The position numbers and the translations under genes are program-made. A stretch of 64,000 nucleotides of DNA from assembly GCF_900155595.1 (NCBI RefSeq), contig NZ_FTPB01000004.1:1302001-1366000 (forward strand), in the 5' to 3' direction. Origin of the DNA: Actinomyces mediterranea (GTDB lineage: Bacteria; Actinomycetota; Actinomycetes; Actinomycetales; Actinomycetaceae). The notes under the pieces were generated by a model, which was not told where the DNA came from, did not search any database, and was given only the letters and a program-made list of their open reading frames with translations. Numbering within the stretch: the first letter of the stretch is position 1; every line of letters starts with the position of its first letter. Shown piece after piece: positions 10,553 through 27,510 of this stretch.

Positions 10553-12253
10553 CTACGAGAGGGAGGGGGTCAGGGCGACGAGTCCCAGGCCGGAGACTCC
10601 TACGAGGAGGTCGTCGAAAACGAGAGTCGGTTCTGACAACTTTCGGGTTTTCTTCACATCGACAAGGGAGCCTGTCGCCGAATCGGCAAAGAACGGATGC
10701 CGCTCGAAATCGTAAAACCCTAACCCGATCGAACGATCCGTTGAGAGCACGAAGCCTTCAAGTTCAACAGTGCATTCGCCGTCATAACCGTAGGACAGCG
10801 AGTAATCGGAGTTGATGCCCTCTATCGAAATCTTCTGGTTGTTCATAACCATGTCCTCACAATTCTCACCGGTGAAGCCGACGAGTCCATCACCCCAGGT
10901 GCGCACTTCATCGCGCCATTGTCGGCCGATTTCTTCGATAGTGGGGCGCCGCGGTCCGAGGACGGGCCGGGGTCCGCGCGTGACACGGCGGTAGTCGATG
11001 TCGAAGGTTTCGATGAGTGAGCCATCCGGGGCGAGTAGGCTCATAGAATCCTTCTCGCCGGGGATGACGGCCCACCCATCCGACGCTGCAATGATGGGTC
11101 CTTCAGAGTCCAGATAGGCGTAGTCGGGCTTGACCTCGAAGGAAGAGGTCTCACCGGTGCGGATATTGAAAAGGAGCATCATGTCAGCTGAATAGTCCGT
11201 GACAATCGTCCACTGATCGTCTCCCTCGCCGACAATGTCGTCACTCAGAGAGGCTCTGGTGGGTAACCGTCTCTGCCACAATTGTTCAGTCGGTGATGCC
11301 CAACCGGTGCACAGTCCATCCCAATCACATGCGATCGCCATATCGCCGACAATTTTGACGCGTGTATCCGCACTCCACGGAGACACGATGCGTGCGCCAG
11401 TCTCAATGTCGATGAGGTATCCATCGAGGAGGAGCAGATCCCCCCACAAAGACAGCTCATTCGAGGAGTAGATGACTATGTCCGCACTGAGTCGCCACAA
11501 TTCCTGCGGGGTTGCTCCCGCAACGTCATACGCGACGAGTTGCGGCAATGCGCTGCCATCGCTCGAGACGACGATCAGTGTCGTACCGTTGGCGATTGAA
11601 GCAAAAGTGGATGTCGGCCGATCTGAATCGAGGGGGATCGGGAGTGTCCAGGCGACTGCGACTCCGTGTGACCAATCGGATGAGGGATGTCCTGTCGACG
11701 CCGTAGTACCCGAGTATCCGACAGCCGCCTCCCTGTCGATGCTCGTCCATCGTGTGATGAAGGGGGTGAGGACCAGCACCGCGATGACAATGACAGCGCT
11801 CCCAACGGTGAGCCACGTACGAGGACGTCGATTCGGATGAGGTCCGGACTTTTGTGCGACCGTCGAAAAGGGGTTGACGGCGGGACTGATCTGTGAGGTC
11901 CACTGTTGCAGGGGATCCAACGGCTGGTGCGCGCCCACGAGCGGATCGGACTGCGCGTGGCCAGGATTCGGTCGAAGCGTCGGGACAGCGGGTGTGATGT
12001 CCTCCCGCTCGGGCGCAGCGCTTCCCGGATGCTCGTGCCCGACCCGCGGGGGCTCCGCGGATGGAACGGGCTGATCCGGATGGGACCAGCGTTCGTCGGC
12101 CACCGATGACGGCTCACCCGGTGTGGGAGAGAAGACCGCAGGCGGCTCGGGGAGCGGCGCAGCGATGTCATCAACGCCGTCCACAGGCGGCGCCCACTTC
12201 GAATCGTCGCTCATCGCGCCTCCATTCATCGGGTCGGACCTGGGTTCACTCAC
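10553..12253 (-). CDS. Single-pass membrane protein with Pro-rich cytoplasmic arm and beta-propeller-like ectodomain
   Basis: A 566-residue protein of unknown role. Residues 1-146 are Pro/Ser-rich and hydrophilic, 147-166 (TWLTVGSAVIVIAVLVLTPF) are one membrane helix, and the rest is outside. The outer part has repeated units such as LLLDGYLIDIETGARIVSPW, MLLFNIRTGETSSFEV and WAVIPGEKDSMSLLAPDG, which look like PQQ-type beta-propeller blades. Two starts are plausible: GTG at 12253 with CATACT six bases upstream (leaderless), or ATG at 12214 with GGAGG four bases upstream. It is transcribed divergently from thrC and reads towards ispF. No enzymatic motif is seen. Confidence 0.7.
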   Translation of the reverse strand: MSEPRSDPMNGGAMSDDSKWAPPVDGVDDIAAPLPEPPAVFSPTPGEPSSVADERWSHPDQPVPSAEPPRVGHEHPGSAAPEREDITPAVPTLRPNPGHAQSDPLVGAHQPLDPLQQWTSQISPAVNPFSTVAQKSGPHPNRRPRTWLTVGSAVIVIAVLVLTPFITRWTSIDREAAVGYSGTTASTGHPSSDWSHGVAVAWTLPIPLDSDRPTSTFASIANGTTLIVVSSDGSALPQLVAYDVAGATPQELWRLSADIVIYSSNELSLWGDLLLLDGYLIDIETGARIVSPWSADTRVKIVGDMAIACDWDGLCTGWASPTEQLWQRRLPTRASLSDDIVGEGDDQWTIVTDYSADMMLLFNIRTGETSSFEVKPDYAYLDSEGPIIAASDGWAVIPGEKDSMSLLAPDGSLIETFDIDYRRVTRGPRPVLGPRRPTIEEIGRQWRDEVRTWGDGLVGFTGENCEDMVMNNQKISIEGINSDYSLSYGYDGECTVELEGFVLSTDRSIGLGFYDFERHPFFADSATGSLVDVKKTRKLSEPTLVFDDLLVGVSGLGLVALTPSLS

Positions 12254-12325: not shown

Positions 12326-13771
12326 GTGCGATACATCTCAACACGGCAAGATCCGGCGGTGCCCTCGCGGACTTTCTCGGACATCCTCTTGGAAGGGCTC
12401 GCCCCCGACGGGGGTCTCTACCTACCCGAGGAATACCCGCAGCTGACCCCCCAGGACCTCGCGGACCTGCGTCGCGTCTTCGTCGCCGAGGGCTATGCCG
12501 CCCTCGCCTCACGCGTCCTCGCCCTCTTCATCGACGACATCCCCGCCGCCGACCTCGAAGCGGTCACCGCTCGCGCATACTCCACCCCCGCTTTCTCACA
12601 TCCCGACATCGTCCCCGTCACGCACCTGCGCGACTCCCTGTGGATCGCCCACCTGTCGAACGGCCCGACCGCCGCTTTCAAGGACATGGCGATGCAGCTG
12701 CTCGGCGAACTCTTCGAATACGAGCTCGCCCGGCGGGACGACTGGCTCACCATCGTCGGCGCCACATCGGGGGACACCGGTTCTTCCGCGGAATACGCGT
12801 TGCGGGGCAGGCCCGGCCTCGGAGTCGTCATGCTCACCCCGGCCGACCGCATGACCCCCTTCCAGAGGGCGCAGATGTTCTCCCTCATGGATGACAACAT
12901 CATCAATGTCGCCGTTGACGGCGTCTTCGACGATTGCCAGGACCTCGTCAAGGCACTCAATATGGACGCCGACTTCAAAGCCGCCTGGCATATCGGAGCC
13001 GTCAACTCGATCAACTGGGCGCGCCTGCTCGCCCAAGTCGTCTACTACATCGCGACCTGGCTGAGGATCTCGACGGCGGACACGGACGCGGTGAGCGTCG
13101 TCGTCCCGTCGGGCAACTTCGGCAACGTCTGCGCCGCCCACATCGCCCGCCAGATGGGGGTGCCCCTCGACGCGCTCATCGTCGCAACGAATGAGAACGA
13201 CGTCCTCGATGAATTCTTCCGCACCGGTGTCTATCGGGTGCGATCCGGCGAACAGACCCTCGCTACCTCCTCGCCGTCCATGGACATCTCCAAGGCCTCG
13301 AACTTCGAGCGATTCATCTTCGACCTCCTCGGTCGCGACGGTGGGCGCGTCGCAGAACTCTTCGGAAAGGTACTGGAGCGCGACGGCTGCTTCGACCTGT
13401 CCGACACCCCCGAATTCGCCGCCCTGAGGGAGAACTTCGGCTTCGCATCGGGGACCTCGACGCACGCCGACCGGCTCGTCGAAATCGCCCGTACTGAGAC
13501 AGAAGACGGGTACCTCATCGACCCGCATACCGCCGACGGCATGCACGTGGCGCGCCAATGGGCAGCGCACGTCTCCACGCCCCTCGTCGTCATGGAGACC
13601 GCCCTGCCCGTGAAATTCGCCGAGACGATCCACGAGGCCACCGGCCACGATCCGGCTGTTCCGGAGCGCTTCGCCGACATCGGGAGCGGCCCGCAGCGCG
13701 TCGTCGAACTGCCCAACGACGTTGACGCACTCAAGACACTCATCGAATCCCGGGTCCACCCCCTCGCCTGA
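12326..13771 (+). CDS. thrC: Threonine synthase
   Basis: A PLP enzyme converting O-phosphohomoserine to threonine. At 481 residues it belongs to the long E. coli/yeast-like class, shown by the N-terminal YISTRQ and FSDILLEGLAPDGGLYLPE. The PLP lysine is K119 in NGPTAAFKDMAMQLLG. ATSGDTGSSAEYAL and PSGNFGNVCAAHIARQMG form the cofactor phosphate-binding loops. NAVNSIN-type residues (IGAVNSINWARL) are conserved. The GTG start is supported by TAGGAT-N6-GTG. The 3' end overlaps the convergent SWIM gene by 32 bases. Confidence 0.94.
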   Translation: MRYISTRQDPAVPSRTFSDILLEGLAPDGGLYLPEEYPQLTPQDLADLRRVFVAEGYAALASRVLALFIDDIPAADLEAVTARAYSTPAFSHPDIVPVTHLRDSLWIAHLSNGPTAAFKDMAMQLLGELFEYELARRDDWLTIVGATSGDTGSSAEYALRGRPGLGVVMLTPADRMTPFQRAQMFSLMDDNIINVAVDGVFDDCQDLVKALNMDADFKAAWHIGAVNSINWARLLAQVVYYIATWLRISTADTDAVSVVVPSGNFGNVCAAHIARQMGVPLDALIVATNENDVLDEFFRTGVYRVRSGEQTLATSSPSMDISKASNFERFIFDLLGRDGGRVAELFGKVLERDGCFDLSDTPEFAALRENFGFASGTSTHADRLVEIARTETEDGYLIDPHTADGMHVARQWAAHVSTPLVVMETALPVKFAETIHEATGHDPAVPERFADIGSGPQRVVELPNDVDALKTLIESRVHPLA

Positions 13772-15299
13772 CCCCGCCCACCCTCCCGTGAAACCCGTCC
13801 GAGTACGCGGTGGGGCGGGCGTCCTCGGCTGCGAAAGGGGCTCCGACACCGCGAACCCATGCGGCATCGCGGTCGAGGACGGGCGAGGAGAGGACGGATG
13901 GGCCCGCATCGACAACCCGCTGGCACCAGCGGCGAAGCACCTCGCGCACTTGAGCCGGCCCGGACCCCGCATCCTCCTGGGCGTCCTCGGCGCGCCGCAC
14001 CTCCTCACCATCGGAGGCGGGTTCGGGCAGGGTTCCCGCCCAGGAGCGATCGACGAGGTCGAGGCCCGGCCACCACACGCCTCCGAGCTCATCGGGCACG
14101 ACGATGACTCCGCTGATGACGACCATTCCGAGCAGTTCGTCCTTGCGCGCCAAACAGCGCACGTGGGTCCCCAGGGCTTGCCCGAAGAGTTCGGTCGCCA
14201 GGCCCGCGCCGAGCGCGCGAGCCGTCTCGCTCAAGGACACGAACCTTCCGCTCACATCGAGGCCGCTGCGATCGCCGCCGCGAATTTCGCCCTCGATGAC
14301 CTCGAAGGGCGCGGGAACTGACTTCCACCACTCCTCCGGCGCCGCTGCGAGCGACGCCCGCACTGTTGCGCCCGCGCCCAAACGGCCGTCGTCGCGCGCC
14401 GTCGCTCCGGCGACGAGGAGTCGGCGACGCGACAGGACCCGGATCGGGGCGGACAACTCGCGCCAGACCGGCTCGACGTCGTAGGCGTTTCTCACGCTTA
14501 CCGCGTCGCCGGGGCGCAGGCGCGCCACCGACCAGGTCCGCCCCGACGCGTCCGCGAAAGTCGCCTCGGCCCCGGCGAACCCCGAGGTTGCGATGACGGG
14601 TGCCGCGAAGAGCGGCGTCACAGACAGGCCCCCGACCTTGCGATAGGTCCCGCGCGCTCGGCCGAGCAGCGCCCTCGCATCCTCGTCGGGGCCGAGGTGG
14701 GACAGCAGATGCAAGTTGATGAGGGCGGAAGCGAATGCCGATGCCCGCACCTGCGGTGAGGCCGATAGGTTCTGGTAGTACGCCGTGAGCGCCCGATCCG
14801 CGGTGACGAGGCCCGCGGCTCGCAGCCCGTGGAGATCGCGGGCGAGCGCCGAACGGTGCGCCGCCCCCAGGTGCGCGGTTCCGACCTGCAGGATCGTCGC
14901 GAGGTCGGCGACGACTGCGAGGGCGGTCTCGCGCTGAGCCGCCGACACGGGAACGCTCACGGCCGGGCCCCTCCGAGCGTCGGCGCTCTCAGCTGTGGAG
15001 TCGGAGGCGCCGTCCGAAGCGGCCTCCCCGCCCTCGTCGTCCTCACATCCATCGGCGACTTCCAGGCTCAGAGCCACCACCGCGCGGTGGGCGCAGCGCG
15101 GCGCCAACAGGCAATCGCACACGATCTCGTCCTCGTCGCGCAGTACATTAACGTCGGCCATCCGCACCGTCGACGCGCCGAGAACCGTCTCAGCCCCGAC
15201 CTCCACTCCGTCGGCGAGATAAGCGTCGACCCGTTGACGCACCCGCGGCGTCAACGCATCGACGATGGAGGAGAGTACCTCGGGGGCGATCCGAGTCAT
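13740..15299 (-). CDS. SWIM zinc-finger protein (YehQ-like), last gene of MoxR/VWA operon
   Basis: A 519-residue protein. The zinc-binding SWIM motif C-x-C-x5-C-x-H is seen at C61, C63, C69 and H71 (EIVCDCLLAPRCAHRAV). The rest is mainly helical at first, followed by a beta-rich part (TPLFAAPVIATSGFAGAEATF, GRFVSLSETARAL). No enzymatic motif is seen. Its ATG overlaps the stop of the DUF5682-VWA gene by ATGA, so translation is coupled. In E. coli the SWIM protein YehQ sits in the corresponding place after YehL, YehM and YehP. The C-terminal codons overlap the end of thrC on the other strand. Confidence 0.8.
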   Translation of the reverse strand: MTRIAPEVLSSIVDALTPRVRQRVDAYLADGVEVGAETVLGASTVRMADVNVLRDEDEIVCDCLLAPRCAHRAVVALSLEVADGCEDDEGGEAASDGASDSTAESADARRGPAVSVPVSAAQRETALAVVADLATILQVGTAHLGAAHRSALARDLHGLRAAGLVTADRALTAYYQNLSASPQVRASAFASALINLHLLSHLGPDEDARALLGRARGTYRKVGGLSVTPLFAAPVIATSGFAGAEATFADASGRTWSVARLRPGDAVSVRNAYDVEPVWRELSAPIRVLSRRRLLVAGATARDDGRLGAGATVRASLAAAPEEWWKSVPAPFEVIEGEIRGGDRSGLDVSGRFVSLSETARALGAGLATELFGQALGTHVRCLARKDELLGMVVISGVIVVPDELGGVWWPGLDLVDRSWAGTLPEPASDGEEVRRAEDAQEDAGSGPAQVREVLRRWCQRVVDAGPSVLSSPVLDRDAAWVRGVGAPFAAEDARPTAYSDGFHGRVGGVRRGGGPGIR

Positions 15300-18200
15300 G
15301 AGTGCTCCCGAATGACCGTGCCCACCCATCGGGCCAGATCGAGCGGCGACACCGCCGCGACCCGCATGCCCGCGGCCGCGACCCGTGAGGCGACTCCGAC
15401 GTTGTAGACGCCCGTGCCCGAATCGTTGAGAGCCGCGCACCCGAGCAGCATCACACCGGAGACGGCCAGGGCCTCGACCTCGTCCTCCAGCGCATCGAGC
15501 GGCCCGCCCTCGTCGAAATCCGACACGAGGACGAGCAGGGTGCGCCCCGGTACCCGGACCCGCGATCGGGCCACGCGAAGCGCCCCCGCGATGTCCGTTC
15601 CGCCGCCGATCTCGACCTCCACGAGCAGCGCCAAAGGGTCGTCGACCCGGCCGGAGAAGTCGATGATCTCCGTGTTGAAGGCGAGGAAGTCGACCGACAG
15701 ACACGGGGACTCGGCGAGGATCGCGGCGACGAGGGCGGAGTAGACGACCGACTCCGACATCGAACCGGACACGTCGACGACGAGGATCAGACGCCAGTCG
15801 GATTCTTGGGCCTGCGCCGAATGGAACACCGGGTGAACGGGAACGACTCGGGGGCTCCCGTCGACCGGCACGACGTGGCGCAGATTCGCTCGCAGCGTCC
15901 GCGCAAGGTCGAGATCGTTCGTGTGGCGCCGCGTGGGTCGGCTCGTCGCCAGGCCCGTCAGCGCCGGGCGGAGTCTTACGGCGAGCTCCTTGGCGAGTTC
16001 GGACACAAGTCGGGCGACGAGGGGGCGCAGCTTCGCCAGGCGGGCCTCGGGCAGGGCTCCGGTCAACGACAGGGCCGTCGTCAATAGGTCGACCGAGGGG
16101 CGCACGGTGTCAGGGGAGAGGCGTTCGAGTAGGTCGGCGCGGCCTCGGGAAGCGGCCTCGCCGAAGATCTCCTCGATGTGCCCGTGACCGAAGAGCGCGT
16201 CGATCTCGGACTCCCATTGGCGCACGCCGAGCTGCGAGGGGCCCGACGCGGCGTCCCGTCTGCGCGCGTCGAGGGCGTCGGATGCGCTCCGCCCGTACAA
16301 CTCGTCGAGTGCGGATGCCATGCGTCGGCCCTGCGGCGACAGGCTCGTGCGCTGCGTCCCGAGGATGAGCCGCCACCTCTCGGCCGGGCTGAAGGACGCG
16401 TCGGCGAGCCCCAGGGCCGCCAGACGCGCCCGCGCCCCCGTGTCGGCTTGTGTGATGGCGATGACCTGCTCGGCAGGAAGCTCAAGGTTGCGCGCCCGCC
16501 CCAAGTTCGGCGCGAGGTCGGCGAGCAGGCGTTCGCGAGAATCCTGGTCGAAACAGTCGAACCCGCCGCGCAGGGCCGGCAGGACCGTGACGAACTCCGC
16601 GTCGTCGACGGTGTTGATCCGATCGACGAGGGCGAGGGCGGCGGGCGCCGTGTCGAAACGGGCGCCCGCCGTGATGAGCAGGCCGACGAGCCTGCGGCGC
16701 AGGACCCGTCTGGCTTCCGGGGTGGCGGCGTTGAGCCAGGAGGCGATGCGGACCGCCGCCTCGTCCTCGTCGATGAGGAGTCCGGCGGATGCGCCCTGCA
16801 TGAGGGGCGAGCCCGCGGACGTCAGGCGGTTGAGGGCCGCATGGAGCGAGAGCGGGTGGTCGGCGCCGATCCCGATGAGGGCGGCGAGGGCGGCGGCGTC
16901 GTCGGGGTCGTCGGATCCCTCGATGCCGCGGATCTCGCGGATGGCGGCGGTTCCGAACAGGTCGGCGGCGGTGGCGGCCCTCTCGCGGAGCTGAGAGTCG
17001 AGGAGAGCAGCGCCGGGAATGTCCGCGCGGGCCACGTCGCTTAGGGCGATCGCGAAGGACACGGCCTCGGCGAAGGACACGGTCGCGGTCATGCGAGTAG
17101 CGAGGTTGAGTGCTCTCTCAAGGGGTGCGGGGCAGGCGCAGGCACTGGCCTCGCGCAGGAGTCGCACGACGTCCACGGCACCCTCGACCCGCCGGGTGAG
17201 CAGCGCCGTCGACGCGATCTGCTCGACTGTGAGCCCGCGAATGGAAGCGAGTTCGATGCTCGCCTCCGTGGCGGGAGTCCACTGCACCTGCCAAGTCTGT
17301 GCAAGGGCTTGCGCTCCCCGGGTCGTGCTCCGCTCCTCGCTGTGGCCGTAGACGACTCCGCCCGCGCGCAGCCGGTGCATGAGTACGGAACGGGTGAGGT
17401 CGAGGGCGCTGCGTTCGGGTACGAGGACGAGCTCGTGGGTTCCGTCAAGGGGGAGGCGTGCCGCTTCGACCTCGGATCGCACGGCTTCGAGCAGGGGGGA
17501 TGTGGGGACGGCGGGGTCGACTCGTCCCGTCCTCGTGCCGATGAGGACGCGTTCGAGGGCGTCGGCCACTGCTCTGCCCCGTCCGAGGATTTCCCCTTGG
17601 GCGAGGACGGAGGTGACCGCTTCGACGAGTTCGCGCCGTGAGGGGGCAGCCAGGTTGCGCAGGGTCGCGAGGTCGAGGGCGATGCGTGAACATTCTGCGG
17701 CTTCTGCGGGGCCTGCGGGGTGTCCGGCTTCGCGCAGCGCCCTCGTGATGGAGGTGATGACGGAGGCGACGTCGGCGCGCAGGCGCTTAGGGTCGAGGCC
17801 CGATTCGTAGACGAGTTGTTGCCAGCCGGGGTCGCGGATGCCGGATGGGTAGCCGGAACGCGAGTCGAGGTGGTCGAAGGAGTAGGCGACGAGACAGGAA
17901 CGCACAGGAGCGTGCTGCGTGCGTGCAGGGAGCTTCGCAGCCTCGGAGGAGCCATGTTCCCCAAGCGGAATGTTCACAGCCACAGGGGTGCAAGATGCGG
18001 TGTCTTGTGGAAGGGGGAGAAGAGCGGGGGCGTGGAAGGCTCCGACGAGTGCGGCGACTCGGGTGCCGGACGAGATCTCGGGAGTGAGGGTGGCGCGCAT
18101 CCATTGTTCGCGCTCGAGGCTGTCCTCGTCTGTTTCTGCCTCATCGACGCGCATCGCCCACCCGTGCGCGAGGGCGGCGACGCGGATCTGACCGGGGGTT

Positions 18201-18859
18201 GAAGAGGGTGCGCGAGCTTCGACGAGGCGATCCCAGGATTCGGCTGAATCCCCGTCCTCGGCGCGGGCCGCGGCCTCCAGGGCTCGTCGGCCTCGAGAAT
18301 CGCCGGAGGCGGGAGCCGGGCCCTGGCTGCCCTTGGCCTCCTCACGGGGGTCGCTCTCTTCCCGGAGTGCGCCGAACTCCATCTCATGATCGGCTGCTCC
18401 GGCTGGTGTCTCTCCTGCTCGTGGGCCCGTTGGCGTCTCCCCACTTGGTGTTTCTCCAGCTCTCGGGCCCACGCCTGCCGAGGTCTTCTCCCCCCGAGCC
18501 GCAATGGGCCGGTCAATGCACAGGACCCGTACCCCGCGCGCCGCGGCCCAGCGCAAAGCCGCGAGTTCGGGTGAGAAGTCCGCGAACGGGTAGAAGCTGA
18601 GATCCTCGCCGCGACTGAATGCGAGAGCAACCGGGGCGACGGTGTTCGCGCTGGTCAGCCAGGGGATCCATTCATCTGCCTCAGCAGGCAGTTCGATAGC
18701 GAGCACATCGGGTGCGAAGTCGTCGAGCATCGCGGGGATACTCGCGGCCAGCGCAGGGGAGTGATGGCGCACACCGATGAGGAAGGGGTCGCGGCATGCC
18801 GCGAGCGCCGACACCTGTTCGCGCGCATCGACCTCGTTCCTCATGTTCCCACATTCCAT
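15296..18859 (-). CDS. DUF5682 protein fused to a VWA (CoxE-like) domain
   Basis: A 1187-residue protein that joins two families usually encoded separately (YehM-like and YehP-like). The N-terminal part starts ACRDPFLIGVRHHSPALAAS and contains APDVLAIELPAEAD and YPFADFSPELAALRWA, the DUF5682 signature. A low-complexity Ala/Gly/Glu insert (about residues 125-220) follows. A long helical middle leads to the VWA domain from about residue 1020, where LVVDVSGSMSES (Asp1029) is the metal-ion-dependent adhesion site, with GGGTDIAGAL and LVLVSDFDEGG completing it. In MoxR/VWA systems the VWA protein is thought to recruit or hold clients for the AAA+ partner. The stop overlaps the SWIM start; the MoxR gene ends 33 bases upstream. 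Confidence 0.85.
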   Translation of the reverse strand: MECGNMRNEVDAREQVSALAACRDPFLIGVRHHSPALAASIPAMLDDFAPDVLAIELPAEADEWIPWLTSANTVAPVALAFSRGEDLSFYPFADFSPELAALRWAAARGVRVLCIDRPIAARGEKTSAGVGPRAGETPSGETPTGPRAGETPAGAADHEMEFGALREESDPREEAKGSQGPAPASGDSRGRRALEAAARAEDGDSAESWDRLVEARAPSSTPGQIRVAALAHGWAMRVDEAETDEDSLEREQWMRATLTPEISSGTRVAALVGAFHAPALLPLPQDTASCTPVAVNIPLGEHGSSEAAKLPARTQHAPVRSCLVAYSFDHLDSRSGYPSGIRDPGWQQLVYESGLDPKRLRADVASVITSITRALREAGHPAGPAEAAECSRIALDLATLRNLAAPSRRELVEAVTSVLAQGEILGRGRAVADALERVLIGTRTGRVDPAVPTSPLLEAVRSEVEAARLPLDGTHELVLVPERSALDLTRSVLMHRLRAGGVVYGHSEERSTTRGAQALAQTWQVQWTPATEASIELASIRGLTVEQIASTALLTRRVEGAVDVVRLLREASACACPAPLERALNLATRMTATVSFAEAVSFAIALSDVARADIPGAALLDSQLRERAATAADLFGTAAIREIRGIEGSDDPDDAAALAALIGIGADHPLSLHAALNRLTSAGSPLMQGASAGLLIDEDEAAVRIASWLNAATPEARRVLRRRLVGLLITAGARFDTAPAALALVDRINTVDDAEFVTVLPALRGGFDCFDQDSRERLLADLAPNLGRARNLELPAEQVIAITQADTGARARLAALGLADASFSPAERWRLILGTQRTSLSPQGRRMASALDELYGRSASDALDARRRDAASGPSQLGVRQWESEIDALFGHGHIEEIFGEAASRGRADLLERLSPDTVRPSVDLLTTALSLTGALPEARLAKLRPLVARLVSELAKELAVRLRPALTGLATSRPTRRHTNDLDLARTLRANLRHVVPVDGSPRVVPVHPVFHSAQAQESDWRLILVVDVSGSMSESVVYSALVAAILAESPCLSVDFLAFNTEIIDFSGRVDDPLALLVEVEIGGGTDIAGALRVARSRVRVPGRTLLVLVSDFDEGGPLDALEDEVEALAVSGVMLLGCAALNDSGTGVYNVGVASRVAAAGMRVAAVSPLDLARWVGTVIREHS

Positions 18860-18892
18860 CGCTGTGTTGTGTGATTCGTCCAGCTCGTCGGC

Positions 18893-20026
18893 TCAGTCCT
18901 CAAGCGCGCTGCGAAGCTCCCAGAGCTGCGCCCAGGTGTGCCGTCCCTCGTTCGCGCGGCGTTTCACAGTCGAATCCCAGTAGGCGAGCAGGCGCGCCCC
19001 GTCTTCAGAATCGTCCTTGCGGACCGCCCCGAGCAGTTGGCCGGGAATGAGTCGCACTCCGTCCTTCGCGTGAGGGAAGAACGCCCCGGCAAGGGCGATC
19101 GACCCGGAGATGGCGACCGCTTCAGCCGTCGACAGGACGGTTGAGGGTTTCTCGACGGCCCATCCTTCCTGGCTGATCCCGCTGCGCAGGTCACGGAACG
19201 CGGTGACGAGGGTTTCAACGACGACCTCGTCGACCTTCGCGGGCACTCCGGCTGCACTGAGCGTCTGCTTCGTTTTCTCAGTGACGAGGGCGATCTCAGC
19301 CGAAGCGTCGCAGATCGGGGCGACGGCCTCGAAGTTGAAACGGCGTTTGAGGGCGGCGCTCATTTCTGACACTCCCCGGTCGCGCAGGTTTGCTGTCGCG
19401 ATGAGACAGAATCCGGGGCGCGCATGAATCGCATACTCCCCGAGTTCGGGGACGGCGATGCGGCGTTCGGACAGGATGGAGACGAGTGAGTCTTGGACTT
19501 CGGGCAGGCAACGGGTGATCTCCTCGATGCGCGCGACCCGCCCCGTCGACATGGCGGCCAGGACAGGGGAGGGGACGAGGGCGTCGACACTGGGGCCGCG
19601 CGCGAGGAGTTGGGCGTAGTTCCACCCGTAACGCAACTGGTCCTCGGTCGTGCCCGCACTGCCCTGGACGGTCAGCCCCGAGGTGCCGCAGATGGCTGCG
19701 GAGAGCAGTTCGGAGAGCATTGACTTCGCGGTGCCCGGCTCGCCGACGAGGAGGAGGGCGCGCTCACCGGCCAGGGTGATGACGCAGCGCTCAACGAGGG
19801 AGACATCGCCGACGAACTTGCGGCTGATCTTCAGCCGAGGGTTTCCACAGATGAAGGAGACGACGGCCGAGGGTGTCAGGCGCCAGCCGGGCGGCTTGGG
19901 CCCCTCCTGGCGGGCGAGGACGGCGAGCTCGTCTGCGTAGAGGACCTCCGGCGGCGGCACCTGCTGGGCTGTGTTCGCCTCGGACGCTCCGGGCGTGGAA
20001 TCGCCGGGGGGTGTGCTCGTCGCCAT
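18893..20026 (-). CDS. MoxR-type AAA+ ATPase (YehL-like)
   Basis: A 377-residue AAA+ protein. Walker A is GEPGTAKS (residues 95-102) and Walker B is VARIEEITRCLPEVQ (Glu168-Glu169). LIATANLRDRGVSEMSAALKRRFNFEAV covers sensor 1 and the arginine-finger region. The GxxGTAKS form and the short C-terminal helical lid place it in the MoxR/RavA group, which acts with VWA proteins in assembly, metal insertion or conflict systems. GAGGAGGAA precedes the ATG by three bases. Residues 1-40 are a variable Pro-rich arm. Confidence 0.9.
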   Translation of the reverse strand: MATSTPPGDSTPGASEANTAQQVPPPEVLYADELAVLARQEGPKPPGWRLTPSAVVSFICGNPRLKISRKFVGDVSLVERCVITLAGERALLLVGEPGTAKSMLSELLSAAICGTSGLTVQGSAGTTEDQLRYGWNYAQLLARGPSVDALVPSPVLAAMSTGRVARIEEITRCLPEVQDSLVSILSERRIAVPELGEYAIHARPGFCLIATANLRDRGVSEMSAALKRRFNFEAVAPICDASAEIALVTEKTKQTLSAAGVPAKVDEVVVETLVTAFRDLRSGISQEGWAVEKPSTVLSTAEAVAISGSIALAGAFFPHAKDGVRLIPGQLLGAVRKDDSEDGARLLAYWDSTVKRRANEGRHTWAQLWELRSALED

Positions 20027-20092
20027 GATTCCTCCTCGAAACCTTCTTCTCAGGGTCGGGTGAGCTCGGCGGCCTCATGAGCTAGTCGCCCG

Positions 20093-20142
20093 TCGCTCTC
20101 TCCCCTTCGGCCTGAAGTCTATTCGCTCTCTCCCCTTCGGCC
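20093..20142. repeat. 20-bp direct repeat upstream of the MoxR gene
   Basis: TCGCTCTCTCCCCTTCGGCC occurs at 20093-20112 and again at 20123-20142 within the 156-bp gap between the 1506-aa gene and the MoxR gene. CTCTCCCC in the second copy can also pair with GGGGAGAG around 20155-20163 to form a hairpin. It may attenuate or process the polycistronic mRNA. Confidence 0.5.
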
Positions 20143-20182
20143 CCGAGAGAAACTGGGGGAGAGGGTGAACATCTTCACCTGT

Positions 20183-23100
20183 TCAGCGCCTGCGGTAGCG
20201 GGTCGTGCGCAACTCCGTGTATCCGGGAACGTCCCCGTCCACGTAGCGCTGCCACGCATCCTCGAAGAGTCGCCCCAAGGGGACGAGCGGGACGACCGCA
20301 TCGTGACGCGGAGTGACTTTCGGGGCGTCGGTGAGATCGTAGAATGGGGCCTTCCAGACCTCCATTGGCTTATGCGGGGTGCTCGCCTCCTGCCAGCCGC
20401 CCGGCAGGAAGAGGCTGCGACCTGCACGGGCGCGCTTCGCTTCGACGAGCAGCCCCGCCTCCAGCAGAGGGGCCGCCGCTGCGAGACGCTGCTTCTTCGA
20501 CCAGGAGTTCCACGACTCGACGTTCTTGTCGCTGGGGAAGGTCAGGGCGAGGATCTGCAGCCAGTAACGCGCCGAATCTTCGGGGACACCCAGGGACTTG
20601 GCCGCAGCGGACACGACCTGGGGTGCGGACACGAGCGGGTCACAAGCGCAGCCAGGCGTTGCGTTGACGAGGGCGTCGGCGATCTCGTCATAAACACCGA
20701 TCACCACATCGAGGCGCTTGCGGATCCTTTGCAGCGAGTACTCGCCCTCGTCGATCGCGTCGAGCAGACGCCGATCCTCCGTGAAGTCTTTTGACGTGTT
20801 CGGATCATAGAAGACGGTCGAGTACGGGGCGTTCGTCATCGACCAGGGGCCGACTGAATCGACCTGATCCGAGGGCGCGTTCTCGTCTACGGCGGGCAGG
20901 CCCAGGACGGTGCGCAGGCCGCTCCCGTAGTCCTGCCACTCGACTTTCACGCTTCGGCACGCTGACTTCATGCGCTCATACACCTGGGCGAGCCAGAGCG
21001 CGAAGCGGCTACCGGCCTCGGCCTGAGCAGCAGCCCACAGCCAGACATCAGGGTCGACGCTGTTCGGATCCTGACTGAGTTCGCGCAGTCGCCGTGCGCC
21101 GCCCCAGGGGAAAGCCGAATCCGCTGCGGCGAGAAGAGCACCTGGAAGATGGAAAACCTGCTCATTGTCCGACCAGGCGGCAATGACCGCTTCAACGTCG
21201 ATCCCTTCATGTGCCAGACGCAGGGGGTCGGAGGCGCCGGCCTCGATGAGTCGCAGGAGCTCTTCGGCGCCGAGTCCACTGAGGAACTCCCTGCCTTCCC
21301 TCGCTTCGGCGACTTTCAGGCCGAGCAGGGTGCGCAGGTCCTTGTCGAGGAAGTTCGCCTCAGCCGAGCGGATGTTGGGCAGGCCCGCGAGGAACAATGA
21401 AGCGGCTGCTCTGGTCCACCCGGTCCCCTCAGCGAGGCGCTCGGCCTTCGCCGGATCCCACTGGGGGGCGCCCTCGTCGAGGAGGACGCGGAACGCCTCG
21501 ATGATCGTTTCGGCTTCGATGCCGCAGCCTCGGGTGACGAGGCTGATCGGAGCGCCGTCGACGCTCTTGGGAACACCGCCTGAGGGAGAGAAGAAGCGCG
21601 TCTTGTCGTTGCTGTTGTGAGCCCAGAAGGGGCGGCCGGTGCCGATCAGGATTGCAGGGCCGGAGGGGGTGGTGAGGAGTCGTGCGGGCTCGGTGGATGA
21701 TGGCTTTTCTTCGATCCCCGCCACCTCGAAAACACAGCACGAGGGCGAGTACAGGCCTTCATCGACGAGGTCCCCGAATGCTGCGGCGGCTTGACCTACG
21801 AACTCTTTCGAGGCGAGGGGACGGGTGACTGAGAACAGCAGAGCGATCGGTCGGGTGATGAGGTGGGTGAAAGCACTCCCGACGCCCGTCACCGCAAGCT
21901 CGGCTCCTCCTAGACGCCGGGCCATGTTATGCAGAACGTCACGCTCCGTCGTCAACGACCACTCGATATTCGCCCAGCTGAGAGCGTCGCATGAGGCTTC
22001 CCATTCGGGGAAGCTCCTTGTTGGCTGCGCCTCTTGTGTTGTGCGCTCGAGTCCGTCTTCGACGATTCGTTTGACGCGGGCCGTTGCCCATACGACGGAG
22101 TCGACGAGTGCGCGACAGTCGGAACCGAGGAAACTCGCGGCCGCTGCCCGGGCCTCGTCGGTGAGGATCCTGCCGGGATCCACCGCCTCAGCATCTTCCG
22201 TACTGTCGGCGGTCGGAACGACTTTGAGGAGCTCTTCGAGCTGGGAGGGTGTCGCATGGCGCAGCTTGTCGCTTGCGGCCTCGTCGCGCACTCGGAACTG
22301 GTTCCAGCCGACCTGGGGGACTCTGTGGAGAAGATGAGTGCCCCCTCGTGCGTCAGCCGCCGCGAACATGGGGGCGAAATCATCTTCGCGCACGAGCTCC
22401 TCGCCCTTGAGCAGCCAGTGCCCGCCCCCGGGGCGCGCCATGCGGCCTTTGAAGCGGTCCCAGCGGTCCTTCGGGTGCACCTTATGCCCGTTGGCGTCGA
22501 GGTAGAGCGACTCCTCGTCCCTGCTCATGCGCAGCCACGCGTGTCGGCCATGGGCCGTCGACAGGCTGGAGTCGGCCGTCGTCGGGAAGACTGGACACCA
22601 GATGATGGTGTGCTTTTCGAGTTCCCACCCGTCGCGAAGGTAGGGCTCGATGAGTTCGGCGAGCGGAGCGGGCAGGGATTCGCGTCCCCTCTGACCCGTC
22701 GCGGGGTCGATTTCCCGGAAGGTGTCATCGAGACGCCAGTAGTGCTCGCCTTCGCGAAGAACGAGGGCGCGATCGGCGAAGGGGTCGCCGCCGTCGCCCC
22801 CGTGGACGACGCGCTCACCGACGAGGCGCCCATCGTTGAAGGGCAGGGTCAAGGGGACGTCCGAGCCGCCGTAGTAGCGGATCTGCGTTGATGTTCCCGG
22901 GTCGGTCGACCAGGTGAGGAAGTATTCCCAGTTCTTCCGGTAGGCGCAGGCCGTGGCTTCGCCTGCGAGCAGATAGTGCCAGTATTCGGCTTTGTCTGTT
23001 GCGGTGGGAGCGAAGGAGGCTTCGGCGATCCTCTTGTCGCCGTCGACCCAGATGATGTGGCCATCGGCGGCGATGCCGATCGAGGGGAAGGACTCGTGGA

Positions 23101-24703
23101 AGGTGGTGTTCTTGCCGAGTTCGGCGGATGCGGCTTCCAGTTCGGGCCATGTGTACTCGGTGAGGAAACCGTCGCGGAAAACATCGGCGAGGATTTCTCC
23201 GGCGTTGAGTCGTTCGACGAGGGCGCTGATCTGGCGCGGATACGCGTCAAGACCGGCGGGGGTGAAGAGCGGGCTCAGTCGTCGTATTTCGCTGAGGACT
23301 TCTTGTGAGGTCGGGTGCTCGCCGAGCGTGGACTCCGCCCAGCGTCCGAGCATTGCGCGGGCACCGGAGTGGGAGAGGATGACGTCGAGATGGTCTGAGG
23401 CCGTCCTGCCGATTGTCCCAAGCACCAGGTGCGCGTGTTCGCTTTCGGCGAGGGCATCGAGGTCGGGGCGGTCTTGCGTTTCCGCCCAGTCGGACAGGTT
23501 CAGGCGGTTGTAGTAGGAGCCCGGAGGCGCATCGAATTCGACTTTCGCTCCGGTGGACAAGAGCGCGTCGAGGAGTTCGGGTTGCAGGCCGAAGACGCGC
23601 TTGGACAAGGTGATGCTCTGCCCCTTGAGACTCTTCATTCTTCTGATGAGGAGGCTGAGCTTGCGCGGGTATCCGGCGTTCCATTGGCTCTGGAGCATGC
23701 GCGTGTAGCGTTCGACCCATTCGCGGGCGTCGACTCGCCCGGCGGCGAGGTCTTCGCTCAAACCGACGGAGTCGAGGATGTCGATCCACTCGTCGGAGGG
23801 GACGGGACTCGGGGTGAGGGCGAGTAGCGCCTTCGTGGTCGTGGGCTCTTGCGCGACTAAAACGGGGATCGCTTTCTTGAAGCCCCTCCAGAAGGCGGCG
23901 GGCGCTTTGGACAGCGACGGGGAGGAAAGAACGGCACGCAGGAAGCGGGTGTGGACTTCCACAGGGTCCGCGTGGGCGGCTTTCGCGAGGCGCTTGAGGT
24001 CTGCGGCGAGCCCGCCGTAGGGCGGCATCCCGCCTTTGACGCGGTCGATGTTGAGGGTGAGGAAAATGTCGAGGGCGCGTTCGGGTTCGTAGCGTTCGCA
24101 CAGGGTTTTCGACTCGTTCGTCAGTTCTTTAGCGGTGATGGCCCCGGCGAGGGCGAATTCGAGGAAGGCCTTGGAGTTGCGGTCTTCATCGACTTTGAGG
24201 CTGTGGACGCGCTCGGCTTCGCGCGCTTTGGAGAAGTACTGGGCTGCGTAGACGCGGTTGTCGAGGCGCAAGAAGATGCGGGCGGCCTCTTCGAGGAAGG
24301 TCGGAAGGAAATGCGGGGCGGAGTCGCCGAGCATTTTCGCCAGCTCGTCGAGGAGAAGCTTCGCATTTCCGGGCTTGGATTTGGCGGCTTTGGCGGCGCG
24401 TTGCAGGTCGCCGACGAGGTTGAGGGCGTGGCGCGCATTCTTCGGGTCGTGGATGATCGGCCAGGCGGGGAAGCCGATGGCGCGTTGGCGCATTCGACCG
24501 ATGCCGGTGTGTTGCCCGGGTGTGAAGCCGAGGGAGGTGAGGGTGATGTCCTCGACTTCGCCGAGGGCGTCGGGGGTGAGGCGCACGACGGTACGCCCCT
24601 CAAGGGCGGGGTGGGTGTAGGTGCGAGCCGAGGCGGGGATGGTTCCGGGGGCGTCGGAGGAGATGATGCCACCGAGTTCGGCGGCTCGAGATGGGGTGAT
24701 CAT
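20183..24703 (-). CDS. 1506-aa protein of unknown function in the MoxR/VWA operon
   Basis: A very large protein with no recognised enzymatic motif. The N-terminal third is helical and rich in short Ala/Leu helices (ARHALNLVGDLQRAAKAAKS, YAAQYFSKAREAERVHSLKV, FLEFALAGAITAKEL). The centre is beta-rich with many Trp/Tyr residues (ADGHIIWVDGDKRIAEASF, SLYLDANGHKVHPKDRW). The C-terminus is again helical (ARYWLQILALTFPSD, KKQRLAAAAPLLEAGLLVEAKRAR) and ends in a basic tail. AAGGAA five bases before the ATG supports the start. It lies between the DUF4132 gene and the MoxR gene in one operon, so it is probably a structural or client-recognition part of the same system. Homology to a named family was not recognised. 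Confidence 0.75.
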   Translation of the reverse strand: MITPSRAAELGGIISSDAPGTIPASARTYTHPALEGRTVVRLTPDALGEVEDITLTSLGFTPGQHTGIGRMRQRAIGFPAWPIIHDPKNARHALNLVGDLQRAAKAAKSKPGNAKLLLDELAKMLGDSAPHFLPTFLEEAARIFLRLDNRVYAAQYFSKAREAERVHSLKVDEDRNSKAFLEFALAGAITAKELTNESKTLCERYEPERALDIFLTLNIDRVKGGMPPYGGLAADLKRLAKAAHADPVEVHTRFLRAVLSSPSLSKAPAAFWRGFKKAIPVLVAQEPTTTKALLALTPSPVPSDEWIDILDSVGLSEDLAAGRVDAREWVERYTRMLQSQWNAGYPRKLSLLIRRMKSLKGQSITLSKRVFGLQPELLDALLSTGAKVEFDAPPGSYYNRLNLSDWAETQDRPDLDALAESEHAHLVLGTIGRTASDHLDVILSHSGARAMLGRWAESTLGEHPTSQEVLSEIRRLSPLFTPAGLDAYPRQISALVERLNAGEILADVFRDGFLTEYTWPELEAASAELGKNTTFHESFPSIGIAADGHIIWVDGDKRIAEASFAPTATDKAEYWHYLLAGEATACAYRKNWEYFLTWSTDPGTSTQIRYYGGSDVPLTLPFNDGRLVGERVVHGGDGGDPFADRALVLREGEHYWRLDDTFREIDPATGQRGRESLPAPLAELIEPYLRDGWELEKHTIIWCPVFPTTADSSLSTAHGRHAWLRMSRDEESLYLDANGHKVHPKDRWDRFKGRMARPGGGHWLLKGEELVREDDFAPMFAAADARGGTHLLHRVPQVGWNQFRVRDEAASDKLRHATPSQLEELLKVVPTADSTEDAEAVDPGRILTDEARAAAASFLGSDCRALVDSVVWATARVKRIVEDGLERTTQEAQPTRSFPEWEASCDALSWANIEWSLTTERDVLHNMARRLGGAELAVTGVGSAFTHLITRPIALLFSVTRPLASKEFVGQAAAAFGDLVDEGLYSPSCCVFEVAGIEEKPSSTEPARLLTTPSGPAILIGTGRPFWAHNSNDKTRFFSPSGGVPKSVDGAPISLVTRGCGIEAETIIEAFRVLLDEGAPQWDPAKAERLAEGTGWTRAAASLFLAGLPNIRSAEANFLDKDLRTLLGLKVAEAREGREFLSGLGAEELLRLIEAGASDPLRLAHEGIDVEAVIAAWSDNEQVFHLPGALLAAADSAFPWGGARRLRELSQDPNSVDPDVWLWAAAQAEAGSRFALWLAQVYERMKSACRSVKVEWQDYGSGLRTVLGLPAVDENAPSDQVDSVGPWSMTNAPYSTVFYDPNTSKDFTEDRRLLDAIDEGEYSLQRIRKRLDVVIGVYDEIADALVNATPGCACDPLVSAPQVVSAAAKSLGVPEDSARYWLQILALTFPSDKNVESWNSWSKKQRLAAAAPLLEAGLLVEAKRARAGRSLFLPGGWQEASTPHKPMEVWKAPFYDLTDAPKVTPRHDAVVPLVPLGRLFEDAWQRYVDGDVPGYTELRTTRYRRR

Positions 24704-24781
24704 GACAGTTCCTTCGGGGCGTACGCGTACGAGGAGAGGGTGCGGGGGTGGGTGCGATCGTGTTCGGGGTGCGAGCCCCGC

Positions 24782-25627
24782 TCAGGGGCGGGGTTCATCG
24801 TCGATGACGCGTCCGGCGTAGATGTGGGCGGCCATGCGCACACCTTCGGAGTAGGCGATGCGGCCGACCTCGCCGATGCGGATGACGTGGTCGTCGCGCA
24901 CCCAGTGCAGGTCGCCGGTCTCCGTTTCGGCGTCGGGACTGTCCGCGCCGATCCAGTAGCGGGCGGTGACGAGGGCGCCGTCCTCGTAGACCGGGCAGGT
25001 CGAGTATCCGCCGGAGACTTTGAAGCCAGCGGCGGTGGCGCGTCCTGCGGCGTAACGCAGTTGTGTGAAGGAGCCGCCCGACCAGGTGTTGAGTTCGAGC
25101 GCTTCGGCCGTGGCGGGGTCTGCGCGGTGGACATCGCGGAAGAGCTGGTCGAAGCGTTGGGAAATGCCGAGTTCCGCAGCGAATTCGCGCAGGTCGTCGA
25201 GGTCGACGAGGGCAGCGGGGTGGGGGATGAGGACGGCCTCGGCGCTGATGGTCGTCGTCTCGCCGTCGAGGTCGACGATGCCGAGGGCGTCCGCGTCCGC
25301 GGCGCGCAAGAATCCGGCGACCTCTCCGTCCGGGGTGGAGATGACGAGGTCAGTGAGCCAGGATCGCCACGCGTCATCGGGCCAGACGGTGGCCAGGACG
25401 ATTCGGGGAACGGGCAGGGATCGCAGGAACCAGCGTTCGACGGCCTCCCCGACCTCGAGGTCGTGCTGGTGGAGGAAGATCAGGGTCGAGTCGAGGTCCT
25501 CCCAGGCCTGCGTCTTCTTCGCGGCCGCAGGAACGGATTTCAAAGTTCTGCCCTTGTCGTTGCGGGCGACGATCTTGCCGCCCTCGATACTGAGTTCGTG
25601 ACCGGTTCCGGTCGGGATCCACTCCAT
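24782..25627 (-). CDS. DUF4132-type protein (YehI/MolR C-terminal-like)
   Basis: A 281-residue protein, first gene of the operon. The sequence EWIPTGTGHELSIEGGKIVARNDKGRTLKSVP and RWFLRSLPVPRIVLATVWPDDAWRSWLTDLV, then GIVDLDGETTTISAEAVLIPHPAALVDLDDLREFAAELG, resembles the DUF4132 domain that ends E. coli YehI (formerly MolR). YehI is about 1200 residues with a WGR domain; here only the DUF4132-like part is present, and no WGR is seen. AAGGA precedes the ATG. The gene follows a strong promoter about 110 bases upstream. The biochemical role of DUF4132 is not established. Confidence 0.7.
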   Translation of the reverse strand: MEWIPTGTGHELSIEGGKIVARNDKGRTLKSVPAAAKKTQAWEDLDSTLIFLHQHDLEVGEAVERWFLRSLPVPRIVLATVWPDDAWRSWLTDLVISTPDGEVAGFLRAADADALGIVDLDGETTTISAEAVLIPHPAALVDLDDLREFAAELGISQRFDQLFRDVHRADPATAEALELNTWSGGSFTQLRYAAGRATAAGFKVSGGYSTCPVYEDGALVTARYWIGADSPDAETETGDLHWVRDDHVIRIGEVGRIAYSEGVRMAAHIYAGRVIDDEPRP

Positions 25628-25736
25628 CGGGGTCCTTCCTCGCGTCGCCGTCCGGTGTGTGGAAGGCGTGGGTGCGCCCGGCGGGTTGCGCCGGACGCTC
25701 GGTTGGATGTTGCCCCTCGTCAGTGGGGCCTTCCGG

Positions 25737-25766
25737 AGTATATGTGCAGGATGAAGAGGTGGACAA
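25737..25766 (-). promoter_or_regulatory. Sigma70-type promoter of the MoxR/VWA operon
   Basis: On the minus strand TTGTCC (25766-25761) is followed by an 18-base spacer and TATACT (25742-25737). This is among the best -35/-10 pairs in the window and predicts a start near 25730. Confidence 0.6.
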
Positions 25767-25944
25767 GGATCCTTGAGACATCAACTTCCTCGCGAAACCC
25801 GTCCGCTTCGTCTTGTACGGCTGTGCGCGTGAGGCGGGCCCGACGCCTTATGCGTGATTCGCGAGGGCGGGCGGGGGATCCCGGCTCAGGTACTCGCGGG
25901 TCCCGCAGAACACGCTCCGCGCCAGTTCGACCTCGCCGCCCCGG

Positions 25945-25950
25945 TAGAAT
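25945..25950 (+). promoter_or_regulatory. -10 of leaderless promoter (cysS)
   Basis: TAGAAT, then CGGAGC, then the cysS ATG at 25957. Confidence 0.55.
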
Positions 25951-25956
25951 CGGAGC

Positions 25957-27408
25957 ATGACGCTGCAGTTGCACGACTCGAAGACCTCCCGCCTGACGCC
26001 CCTCGATCCGATCATCCCCGGACATGTCGGCATCTACCTGTGCGGGGCGACAGTCCAGGGCTCCCCGCATGTGGGCCACCTGCGCGCCGCCGTCGCCTTC
26101 GACTCCCTCGTCAGGTGGTTGCGCCGAAGCGGCCTCGATGTCACCTACATCCGCAATGTGACTGACATTGACGACAAGATCCTCAATAAGTCCGCGCAGG
26201 CGCAGGTCCCCTGGTGGGCGTGGGCCTACCGATTCGAACGCGAATTCACCGACGCTTACGACACCCTCGGCGTCCTGCCCCCGACCTATGAGCCGCGCGC
26301 CACCGGTCACATCCCCGACCAGATCGACCTCGTGCGCCGCCTCATTGACCGCGGACACGCCTACAACGACGGGCGCGGCAATGTCTATTTCGACGTGCAC
26401 AGTCAGCCCGACTACGGCTCCCTGACGCGCCAGCGCCTCGACGACATGCGCACCACCGAAGACGAGACTCAGATCGACGCGGCCGTTGAGGCGGGCAAGC
26501 GCGACCCCCGGGACTTCGCCCTGTGGAAGTCCACGAAGCCCGGCGAACCTGAAACCGCATCCTGGGAGTCCCCCTGGGGTCAGGGCCGCCCCGGATGGCA
26601 TCTCGAATGCTCCGCCATGGCCAGACGCTATCTCGGCGACGAGTTCGACGTCCACGGCGGAGGCATCGACCTGCGCTTCCCGCACCACGAGAACGAGCAG
26701 GCTCAGTCCCATGGCGCAGGCTGGGGTTTTGCCCGCCTGTGGGTCCACAACGCATGGGTGACGACTAAGGGTGAGAAGATGAGCAAGTCGCTCGGCAACG
26801 TCTTGTCGATCGACGCCCTCACCCGGGACTATCCCGTAGTCGCAGTGCGCTGGGCCCTATCCACTGTGCATCACCGCTCCGCAATCGAATGGGGCGACGA
26901 GACCCTGCCCGCGGCCGCCGCCGCATGGGAGCGCTTTTCCGGCTTCGTTGAGCGCTCCATCGACCTCGCCGGGGAGGCTTCGGCTGAGCAGATCGCCCTG
27001 CCCGCCTCCGAGCTTCCCGACGGGTTCGTCGCCGCCATGGACGACGACCTCAATGTCGCGGGCGCGCTCGCGGTCATCCATGAGCACATGAAGGCGGGGA
27101 ACACGGCCATTGACGAGGGCGACAAGGCGCTCGTCCGTCGAGAGCAGGTGCTCGTCCGTTCCATGCTTGACGTCCTCGGTCTCGACCCGGCGTCGCCCCA
27201 GTGGCGCGGGGGACTTGGCGCGGGAGGGGGCGAGGGTTCTGCTGAGCATGAGGCCTTGGATGCCCTGGTTCGTGCCCTCATCGAAGAGCGCGCTCAGGCG
27301 CGCGCCAACAAGGACTGGGCTCGCGCGGACGCTCTGCGGGATCGACTCGCCCAGGCCGGCATCGCCGTCGCCGACGGCCGCGAGGGCGCGAGCTGGAGGC
27401 TGGGCTGA
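25957..27408 (+). CDS. cysS: Cysteinyl-tRNA synthetase
   Basis: Class Ia synthetase charging tRNA-Cys; 483 residues, normal length. [17 protein letters not shown] carries the zinc-site Cys and the HIGH-type motif, [11 protein letters not shown] follows, and [39 protein letters not shown] supplies the remaining zinc ligands. KMSKS appears as [10 protein letters not shown]. The C-terminal helical region ends [33 protein letters not shown], as expected. TAGAAT-N6-ATG predicts a leaderless mRNA. In mycobacteria cysS is followed by rlmB; here a two-gene cassette has been inserted between them. Confidence 0.96.
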
Positions 27409-27474
27409 AGTCCAAGACGGGGGTATTAAGGGCCTTCGGGCCTCGCAATGAGAACAACCGATACGCGTCCACTC

Positions 27475-27503
27475 TTGTCATCGCATCCTACATGTGGGAA
27501 AAT
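27475..27503 (+). promoter_or_regulatory. Promoter of the XRE-ImmA/PIN pair
   Basis: TTGTCA (27475-27480), a 17-base spacer and GAAAAT (27498-27503) end seven bases before the GTG at 27511, giving a strong, apparently leaderless promoter. Confidence 0.55.
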
Positions 27504-27510
27504 CACACAC

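Follow-up and report, generated by a model that had tools for sequence, protein, structure and literature searches.

A five-gene operon around a YehL-type MoxR ATPase in Actinomyces mediterranea: a conserved actinobacterial gene set with a possible role in the DNA-damage response

MoxR AAA+ ATPases with a VWA partner are known from RavA-ViaA and NorQ-NorD, which the accessible parts of the literature link to respiratory enzymes, and from the MoxR-vWA ternary systems (Kaur et al. 2020, PMC7159879). YehL of the Escherichia coli locus yehF-yehH-yehI-yehK-yehL-yehM-yehP-yehQ is one of seven MoxR subfamilies according to the accessible part of PMC3893208, and our literature search turned up no function assigned to the yeh genes. 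Here we analysed a five-gene operon in a 64,000-nucleotide stretch of the Actinomyces mediterranea genome (contig NZ_FTPB01000004.1, positions 1,302,001 to 1,366,000; referred to as the window). The operon encodes, in this order, a short DUF4132 protein, a protein of 1506 amino acids (P1506), a YehL-type MoxR ATPase, a DUF5682-VWA fusion protein and a SWIM-type protein. It is a conserved mobile YehL-MoxR-type gene set in a new arrangement, and in the majority of the relatives studied a promoter motif at the start of the operon provides a strong link to the DNA-damage response.

The propeller MoxR-vWA ternary systems (subsystem 4 of PMC7159879) resemble the operon by a MoxR ATPase, a vWA domain and a propeller in the third protein, by the P-loop GXXXTAKS and perhaps by helical repeats beside the propeller (in P1506 judged by eye). 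However, their vWA protein strictly carries a C-terminal propeller, whereas the vWA domain of the window protein lies C-terminal to DUF5682, and the window MoxR scores 21.7 bits on the bpMoxR model, which has a cut-off of 27. The terms DUF5682, SWIM, DUF4132, yeh and WGR are absent from the main text of PMC7159879. The operon is best read as related to, yet not a member of, the propeller-type systems. VMAP-type ternary systems share the order large component - MoxR - vWA with the operon but have extra C-terminal domains on their vWA protein, while the window protein ends with its vWA domain. RavA-ViaA and NorQ-NorD share the MoxR ATPase with a VWA partner; the window operon differs by having five genes and no visible client gene.

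The E. coli yeh locus encodes MoxR, DUF5682, VWA and SWIM in equal order, with the DUF4132 domain encoded upstream. The MoxR profile matches YehL with an E-value of 4e-115, and the P-loop GEPGTAKS is identical in all 81 aligned sequences and likewise in YehL. The DUF5682-VWA profile matches YehM (3e-62) and the YehP open reading frame (286 bits), while the SWIM profile gave no sequence match to YehQ. The two loci differ in that DUF5682 and VWA are fused in the window operon and in that the short DUF4132 protein and P1506 stand instead of YehI. Furthermore, a WGR-domain protein like YehF of E. coli was not noticed in the window block. In YehI-type proteins it is the C-terminal domain that the small DUF4132 protein matches (hhalign probability 97.5, E 5e-12), and thus DUF4132 protein and P1506 together appear to take the place of YehI in a yeh-type locus. 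For P1506 itself the comparison with YehI gave no match (hhalign probability 0.1).

For comparison of gene order the best 80 of 576 candidate loci from one MoxR query were used, a set biased to near relatives. All five genes are present in 65 of the 80 loci, with identical order and strand in all 65. Fourteen of the remaining 15 loci reach a locus end, and only the Kineosporia locus genuinely lacks the genes for DUF4132 and P1506. P1506 is encoded in 78 of the 80 loci, the second exception being a locus (L051) that starts at MoxR, and it ranges over Streptomyces, Actinoplanes, Nonomuraea, Saccharothrix, Corynebacterium and one myxobacterial metagenome-assembled genome. Outside the block the commonest gene family occurs in 10 of the 80 loci. 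Of 396 genomes sampled evenly across the phylum, 8 encode P1506 and 24 encode DUF5682, and DUF5682 adjoins P1506 in all 8, the window genome among them. According to this conservation across relatives P1506 is a core part of the block and not the additional, lineage-specific component that a sequence-only reading of the window had assumed. The same reading had proposed an assembled unit with yeh-type parts, which as a conserved gene set is supported by the constant gene order and by the matches to YehL, YehM and YehP; the five genes, for which that reading had suggested a comparison of gene order across actinobacteria, do co-occur there.

Other arrangements were surveyed in 31 stretches from the order, of which 29 were informative (L156 is an arbitrary piece, and L153 has no match). 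MoxR-DUF5682-VWA stands alone in 14 of the 29 stretches, one of them cut before MoxR. Seven show YehI-MoxR-DUF5682-VWA, a SWIM gene being detected in only part of them, five the order VWA, MoxR, DUF5682 and three the window-type arrangement, one with a broken P1506 gene. Deinococcus taeanensis has SWIM-DUF5691-MoxR-DUF5682 with VWA; SWIM comes first, and DUF5691 replaces DUF4132 and P1506. In Methylosinus the genes are ordered likewise, but the listing contains no VWA gene. Since five arrangements were seen, the MoxR-DUF5682 core pairs with differing large proteins. The form in which DUF4132 and the propeller belong to different proteins is newly described, as one of five arrangements on this common core. 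On a mobilizable Iodobacter plasmid a YehI-type cassette that includes two DUF4132 genes lies a short distance before type I restriction genes.

The LexA/RecA-independent damage promoter of actinobacteria (RecA-NDp) has the motif tTGTCRgtg-8nt-TannnT (PMC5656591), which is used by PafBC and present across actinobacteria (PMC6789036, PMC8223512), as described in the accessible parts of these papers. Shared k-mers in 73 gene-1 upstream regions yielded TTGTCAGTG, which is this motif. For its quantification 72 upstream windows were available, since 8 of the 80 loci had no gene-1 match or less than 300 bp before gene 1. The exact motif is present in 27 of the 72 windows and 29 times in all 80 loci on both strands (spacer of 7-9 allowed). 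Allowing 2 mismatches, it is found in 62 of the 72 windows versus 0.4 in shuffles, which here and in the k-mer test keep the base composition only. Upstream of the other four genes the corresponding counts are 1/85, 2/79, 0/84 and 0/48 (3/296 in total), and 6/790 in random windows. The motif is therefore concentrated before gene 1, which marks this gene as the operon start. Judged by record title, Streptomyces contributes 44 of the 72 windows, 42 of them with the motif at this threshold. The other 28 windows, among them those of Umezawaea, Streptosporangium, Nonomuraea, Actinokineospora, Saccharothrix and Actinospica, have it in 20 cases. Actinobacterial YehI-type loci show the motif within 2 mismatches in 5 of 7 cases (random windows 3/420), while loci with MoxR-DUF5682-VWA and without DUF4132 lack it (0/13, of 14 loci, and 0/5). 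A second shared k-mer set, CCCGTCACTTGATCA, lies upstream of the DUF4132 gene in about 10-18 of the 73 regions.

The operon resembles the PafBC/RecA-NDp regulon in that the motif stands before its first gene in the majority of the relatives studied. Nevertheless, the accessible parts of the regulon descriptions do not name the operon, and the window copy has no motif. The window genome encodes a tandem WYL pair about 35 kb from Pup-ligase-type genes, and because of this location the pair is likely PafBC. Since the motif is absent, the window copy is probably regulated differently or being lost.

The window operon consists of five open reading frames on the minus strand, just as had been read from the sequence alone, and their domains were assigned from Pfam where it gave matches (Table 1). 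The gaps between the genes measure 78 bp (DUF4132 and P1506), 156 bp (P1506 and MoxR) and 33 bp (MoxR and DUF5682-VWA). An ATGA coupling had been noted at the end of the operon and was confirmed: the SWIM gene starts with the ATG at 15299, which overlaps the stop of the VWA gene, and not at the mechanical start at 15704. The strong promoter that had also been noted did not stand out from background. Only one sigma70-like match is present in the region 13600-26000 versus 0.7 expected from shuffles, though it is located upstream of gene 1. The gap between P1506 and MoxR (20027-20182) contains a 20-bp repeat (GGCCGAAGGGGAGAGAGCGA) twice, and RNA folding of this gap revealed nothing unusual.

Table 1 Features of the operon and its flanks, with positions in the window
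Feature	Position	Strand	Basis or remark
Gene 1, stand-alone DUF4132 protein, 281 aa	24782..25627	-	PF13569, E 6e-23; AlphaFold2 (AF2) model, predicted local distance difference test (pLDDT) 92
Gene 2, P1506, 1506 aa	20183..24703	-	Open reading frame; conserved neighbour of MoxR
Gene 3, MoxR AAA+ ATPase, YehL type, 377 aa, P-loop GEPGTAKS	18893..20026	-	AAA_5, E 2e-37
Gene 4, DUF5682-VWA (CoxE-type) fusion, 1187 aa	15296..18859	-	PF18934, 1e-138; PF05762, 7e-54
Gene 5, 519-aa SWIM-type protein, start overlapping gene 4 by ATGA	13740..15299	-	C-terminus shortened beside thrC
Beta-propeller of P1506, about residues 507-815	22259..23185	-	AF2 model
Conserved C-terminal domain of P1506, about residues 1340-1506	20186..20686	-	Conservation
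DUF5682 domain	16076..18739	-	Near-invariant H-H-P ... E ... D ... RE..M ... GxxH
VWA domain	15323..15985	-	Metal ion-dependent adhesion site (MIDAS) intact: D1029, S1031, S1033, T1088, D1114 invariant in 22 sequences
SWIM CxC...CxH motif, residues 61-71	15087..15119	-	C61xC63...C69xH71 near-invariant in family
Sigma70-like promoter match TTGTCC-18-TATACT, upstream of gene 1	25737..25766	-	Not above chance
Threonine synthase gene thrC, left flank	12326..13771	+	
Cysteinyl-tRNA synthetase gene cysS, right flank	25957..27408	+	
12-bp exact direct repeat, left copy (possible insertion boundary)	13790..13801		
12-bp exact direct repeat, right copy	25794..25805		

P1506 gave zero matches in searches of Pfam, NCBIfam and PADLOC. 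An AF2 model of residues 316-1506 (pLDDT 87) includes the beta-propeller, and the N-terminal part is helical as judged by eye. From the order of its secondary-structure elements the conserved C-terminal domain may be winged-helix-like; it shows weak matches to helix-turn-helix-type Pfam families (FaeA, HTH_67, MerR, HTH_36), each in 1 of 24 members. The blocks of two Corynebacterium loci (L084, L086) and of Arachnia (L045), Actinoplanes (L063) and Actinocorallia (L083) contain multiple P1506 genes. E. coli yehH and yehI, the former a pseudogene in K-12, resemble a parallel duplication to these multi-copy blocks. In one locus (L140:5890-7277) fragmentary P1506 matches adjoin intact-looking genes for MoxR, DUF5682-VWA and SWIM.

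In the fusion protein DUF5682 is N-terminal, and the VWA match stops 8 residues short of the C-terminus; the conserved DUF5682 residues were derived from 28 hand-chosen sequences. The assignment of the fifth protein as a SWIM protein held in part. Its CxC...CxH motif is near-invariant in the family, while a Pfam search with the window member gave no match and Pfam SWIM scores only 1 of 21 aligned members, so that the label rests on the motif. Past the residues APFAAE the C-terminus diverges from the proteins of L045 and L046, and the window protein is shorter than both. Over 41 loci the mean identity is 0.42 for P1506, 0.45 for SWIM and 0.76 for MoxR.

In a sister species thrC and cysS are adjacent (thrC end at 11958 and cysS start at 12104 in L172), while in the window the operon sits between them. 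Judged from this gene order, the operon is an insertion in the window genome. The sample covers 14 further genomes of the family, which encode neither P1506 nor DUF5682. Among the MoxR matches listed, those of Arachnia (86%) and Tessaracoccus (83%) are closest, and the remainder reach at most 70%. The GC content is 67.6% for the operon versus 62.7% for the rest of the window. A bracketing 12-bp repeat is expected by chance about once per hundred comparisons of that size (a rough estimate), and there is no transposase among the five genes between the repeats. MoxR relatives (E ≤ 1e-60) are also present in 40 records of a plasmid collection, several of them chromosome-sized; among the four records opened, one from Streptomyces is of the window type.

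Further genes lie around the operon. The region 27448-29134 (+), between cysS and an rlmB-like gene named by eye, holds a gene for a helix-turn-helix and ImmA/IrrE-type peptidase (Pfam M78) and after it a 189-aa gene, PIN-like by eye and without a Pfam match. The two form another accessory module adjoining the operon. On the other side, 10553-12253 (-) encodes a 566-aa protein without a Pfam match, of which five relatives surround ispF and thrC in the sister species.

Taken as a whole, we give an even chance to the reading that the block is a horizontally transferable operon whose products form a remodelling machine of the YehL-type MoxR-VWA kind and act in the DNA-damage response. In such a machine the MoxR ring would drive the VWA domain of the DUF5682-VWA protein, and DUF5682 would be the active module, perhaps a hydrolytic one. 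P1506, with its helical part, propeller and winged-helix-like end, would form together with the DUF4132 protein the recognition scaffold that replaces YehI, while the SWIM protein may touch nucleic acid or protein. The complex would then remodel a damaged or stalled nucleoprotein complex.

Parallels exist in other phyla. According to the accessible part of PMC8533742, the DUF4132 protein DRA0166 of Deinococcus radiodurans belongs to the DdrO regulon, its level is raised by mitomycin C and this depends on IrrE; this source also notes kinship with MolR through a WGR domain and a place in the LexA regulon. In the 25-kb locus of D. taeanensis the DdrO motif with at most 2 mismatches occurs only once, about 20 bp ahead of the first gene of the cassette, and in E. 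coli a LexA-like box begins 27 bp before yehF. A wider proposal, which we hold tentatively and at somewhat less than even chance, is that DUF4132-containing YehL-type MoxR-DUF5682-VWA-SWIM cassettes, E. coli yeh included, are one ancient DNA-damage-response machine. Different phyla would have independently recruited PafBC (actinobacteria), DdrO/IrrE (Deinococcus) and LexA (E. coli) for its control, and the motor would remodel nucleoprotein complexes at lesions.

Several points weigh against a role in the DNA-damage response. Upstream of the window copy the motif is absent, the best match having 6 mismatches, and the window genome as a whole has 4 motif matches within 1 mismatch versus 9 for a reversed-pattern control. 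The motif is also missing in 10 of the 72 upstream regions, including that of one of the two nearest relatives (L046, 4 mismatches) and the myxobacterial one (L092, 5 mismatches). Because the upstream regions share descent, the motif counts are not independent events, and promoter evidence speaks for timing and not for mechanism. As to the other phyla, the D. taeanensis cassette lacks DUF4132, and allowing 3 mismatches its locus contains 4 DdrO-motif matches versus 2.2 expected, which is near chance. The parallel with DRA0166 is at the level of the DUF4132 protein. The LexA-like box of E. coli agrees in 13 of 20 letters and is outscored elsewhere within its 30 kb. Finally, DUF5682 has no detectable similarity to erythromycin-esterase-type enzymes (PF05139; hhalign probability 0.1), in a comparison with only 5 and 7 esterase sequences from loci with a usable frame (5/11, then 7/11).

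The rapid divergence of P1506 and SWIM and the mobility of the operon suit a conflict system equally well. The block could be an anti-phage system resembling the MoxR-vWA ternary systems, in which a third component senses the invader, DUF5682 is the effector and DNA damage merely the trigger. We consider this unlikely, though it accounts for several findings: the gene order is that of the VMAP ternary systems, and the P-loop form frequent in the propeller and FtsH subsystems (PMC7159879) is present in 81 of 81 sequences here. The two fastest-diverging proteins, the patchy distribution together with the insertion, and the type I restriction genes beside the yeh-type locus on the Iodobacter plasmid also agree with it. 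However, PADLOC models match none of the five proteins except for MoxR, which hits REase_II with an E-value of 0.02. Defence genes are not prominent among the 119 nearest flanking genes (of 120 called, L090 excluded), where 15 PADLOC models gave any match and the most frequent, a cold-shock model, matched four genes. No relative was found by one pattern scan of viral contigs.

MoxR chaperone systems usually adjoin the gene of their client. A dedicated chaperone that inserts a metal or activates one enzyme, comparable to NorQD, CoxDE or RavA-ViaA, would fit the combination of MoxR with a CoxE-type VWA domain and intact MIDAS, and NorQD offers a precedent, its metal insertion being driven by twisting according to the accessible part of PMC13036017. 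No conserved client gene was found next to the block, as the top family outside it reaches 10 of 80 loci and the top neighbouring Pfam family 5 of 119 genes, and this explanation is improbable. Least probable is that the window copy is a decaying passenger without function, for which its shortened SWIM C-terminus at the thrC junction, the absent promoter motif and the lack of the operon in 14 of 14 other sampled family members may speak, since all five reading frames are open with the signature residues of MoxR, MIDAS, SWIM and DUF5682 intact, and it would concern the window copy only.

For the remodelling machine proposed here, the promoter motif connects the form seen in actinobacteria with the PafBC pathway, so that condition, regulator and phenotype are testable together for a so far unexplained family.

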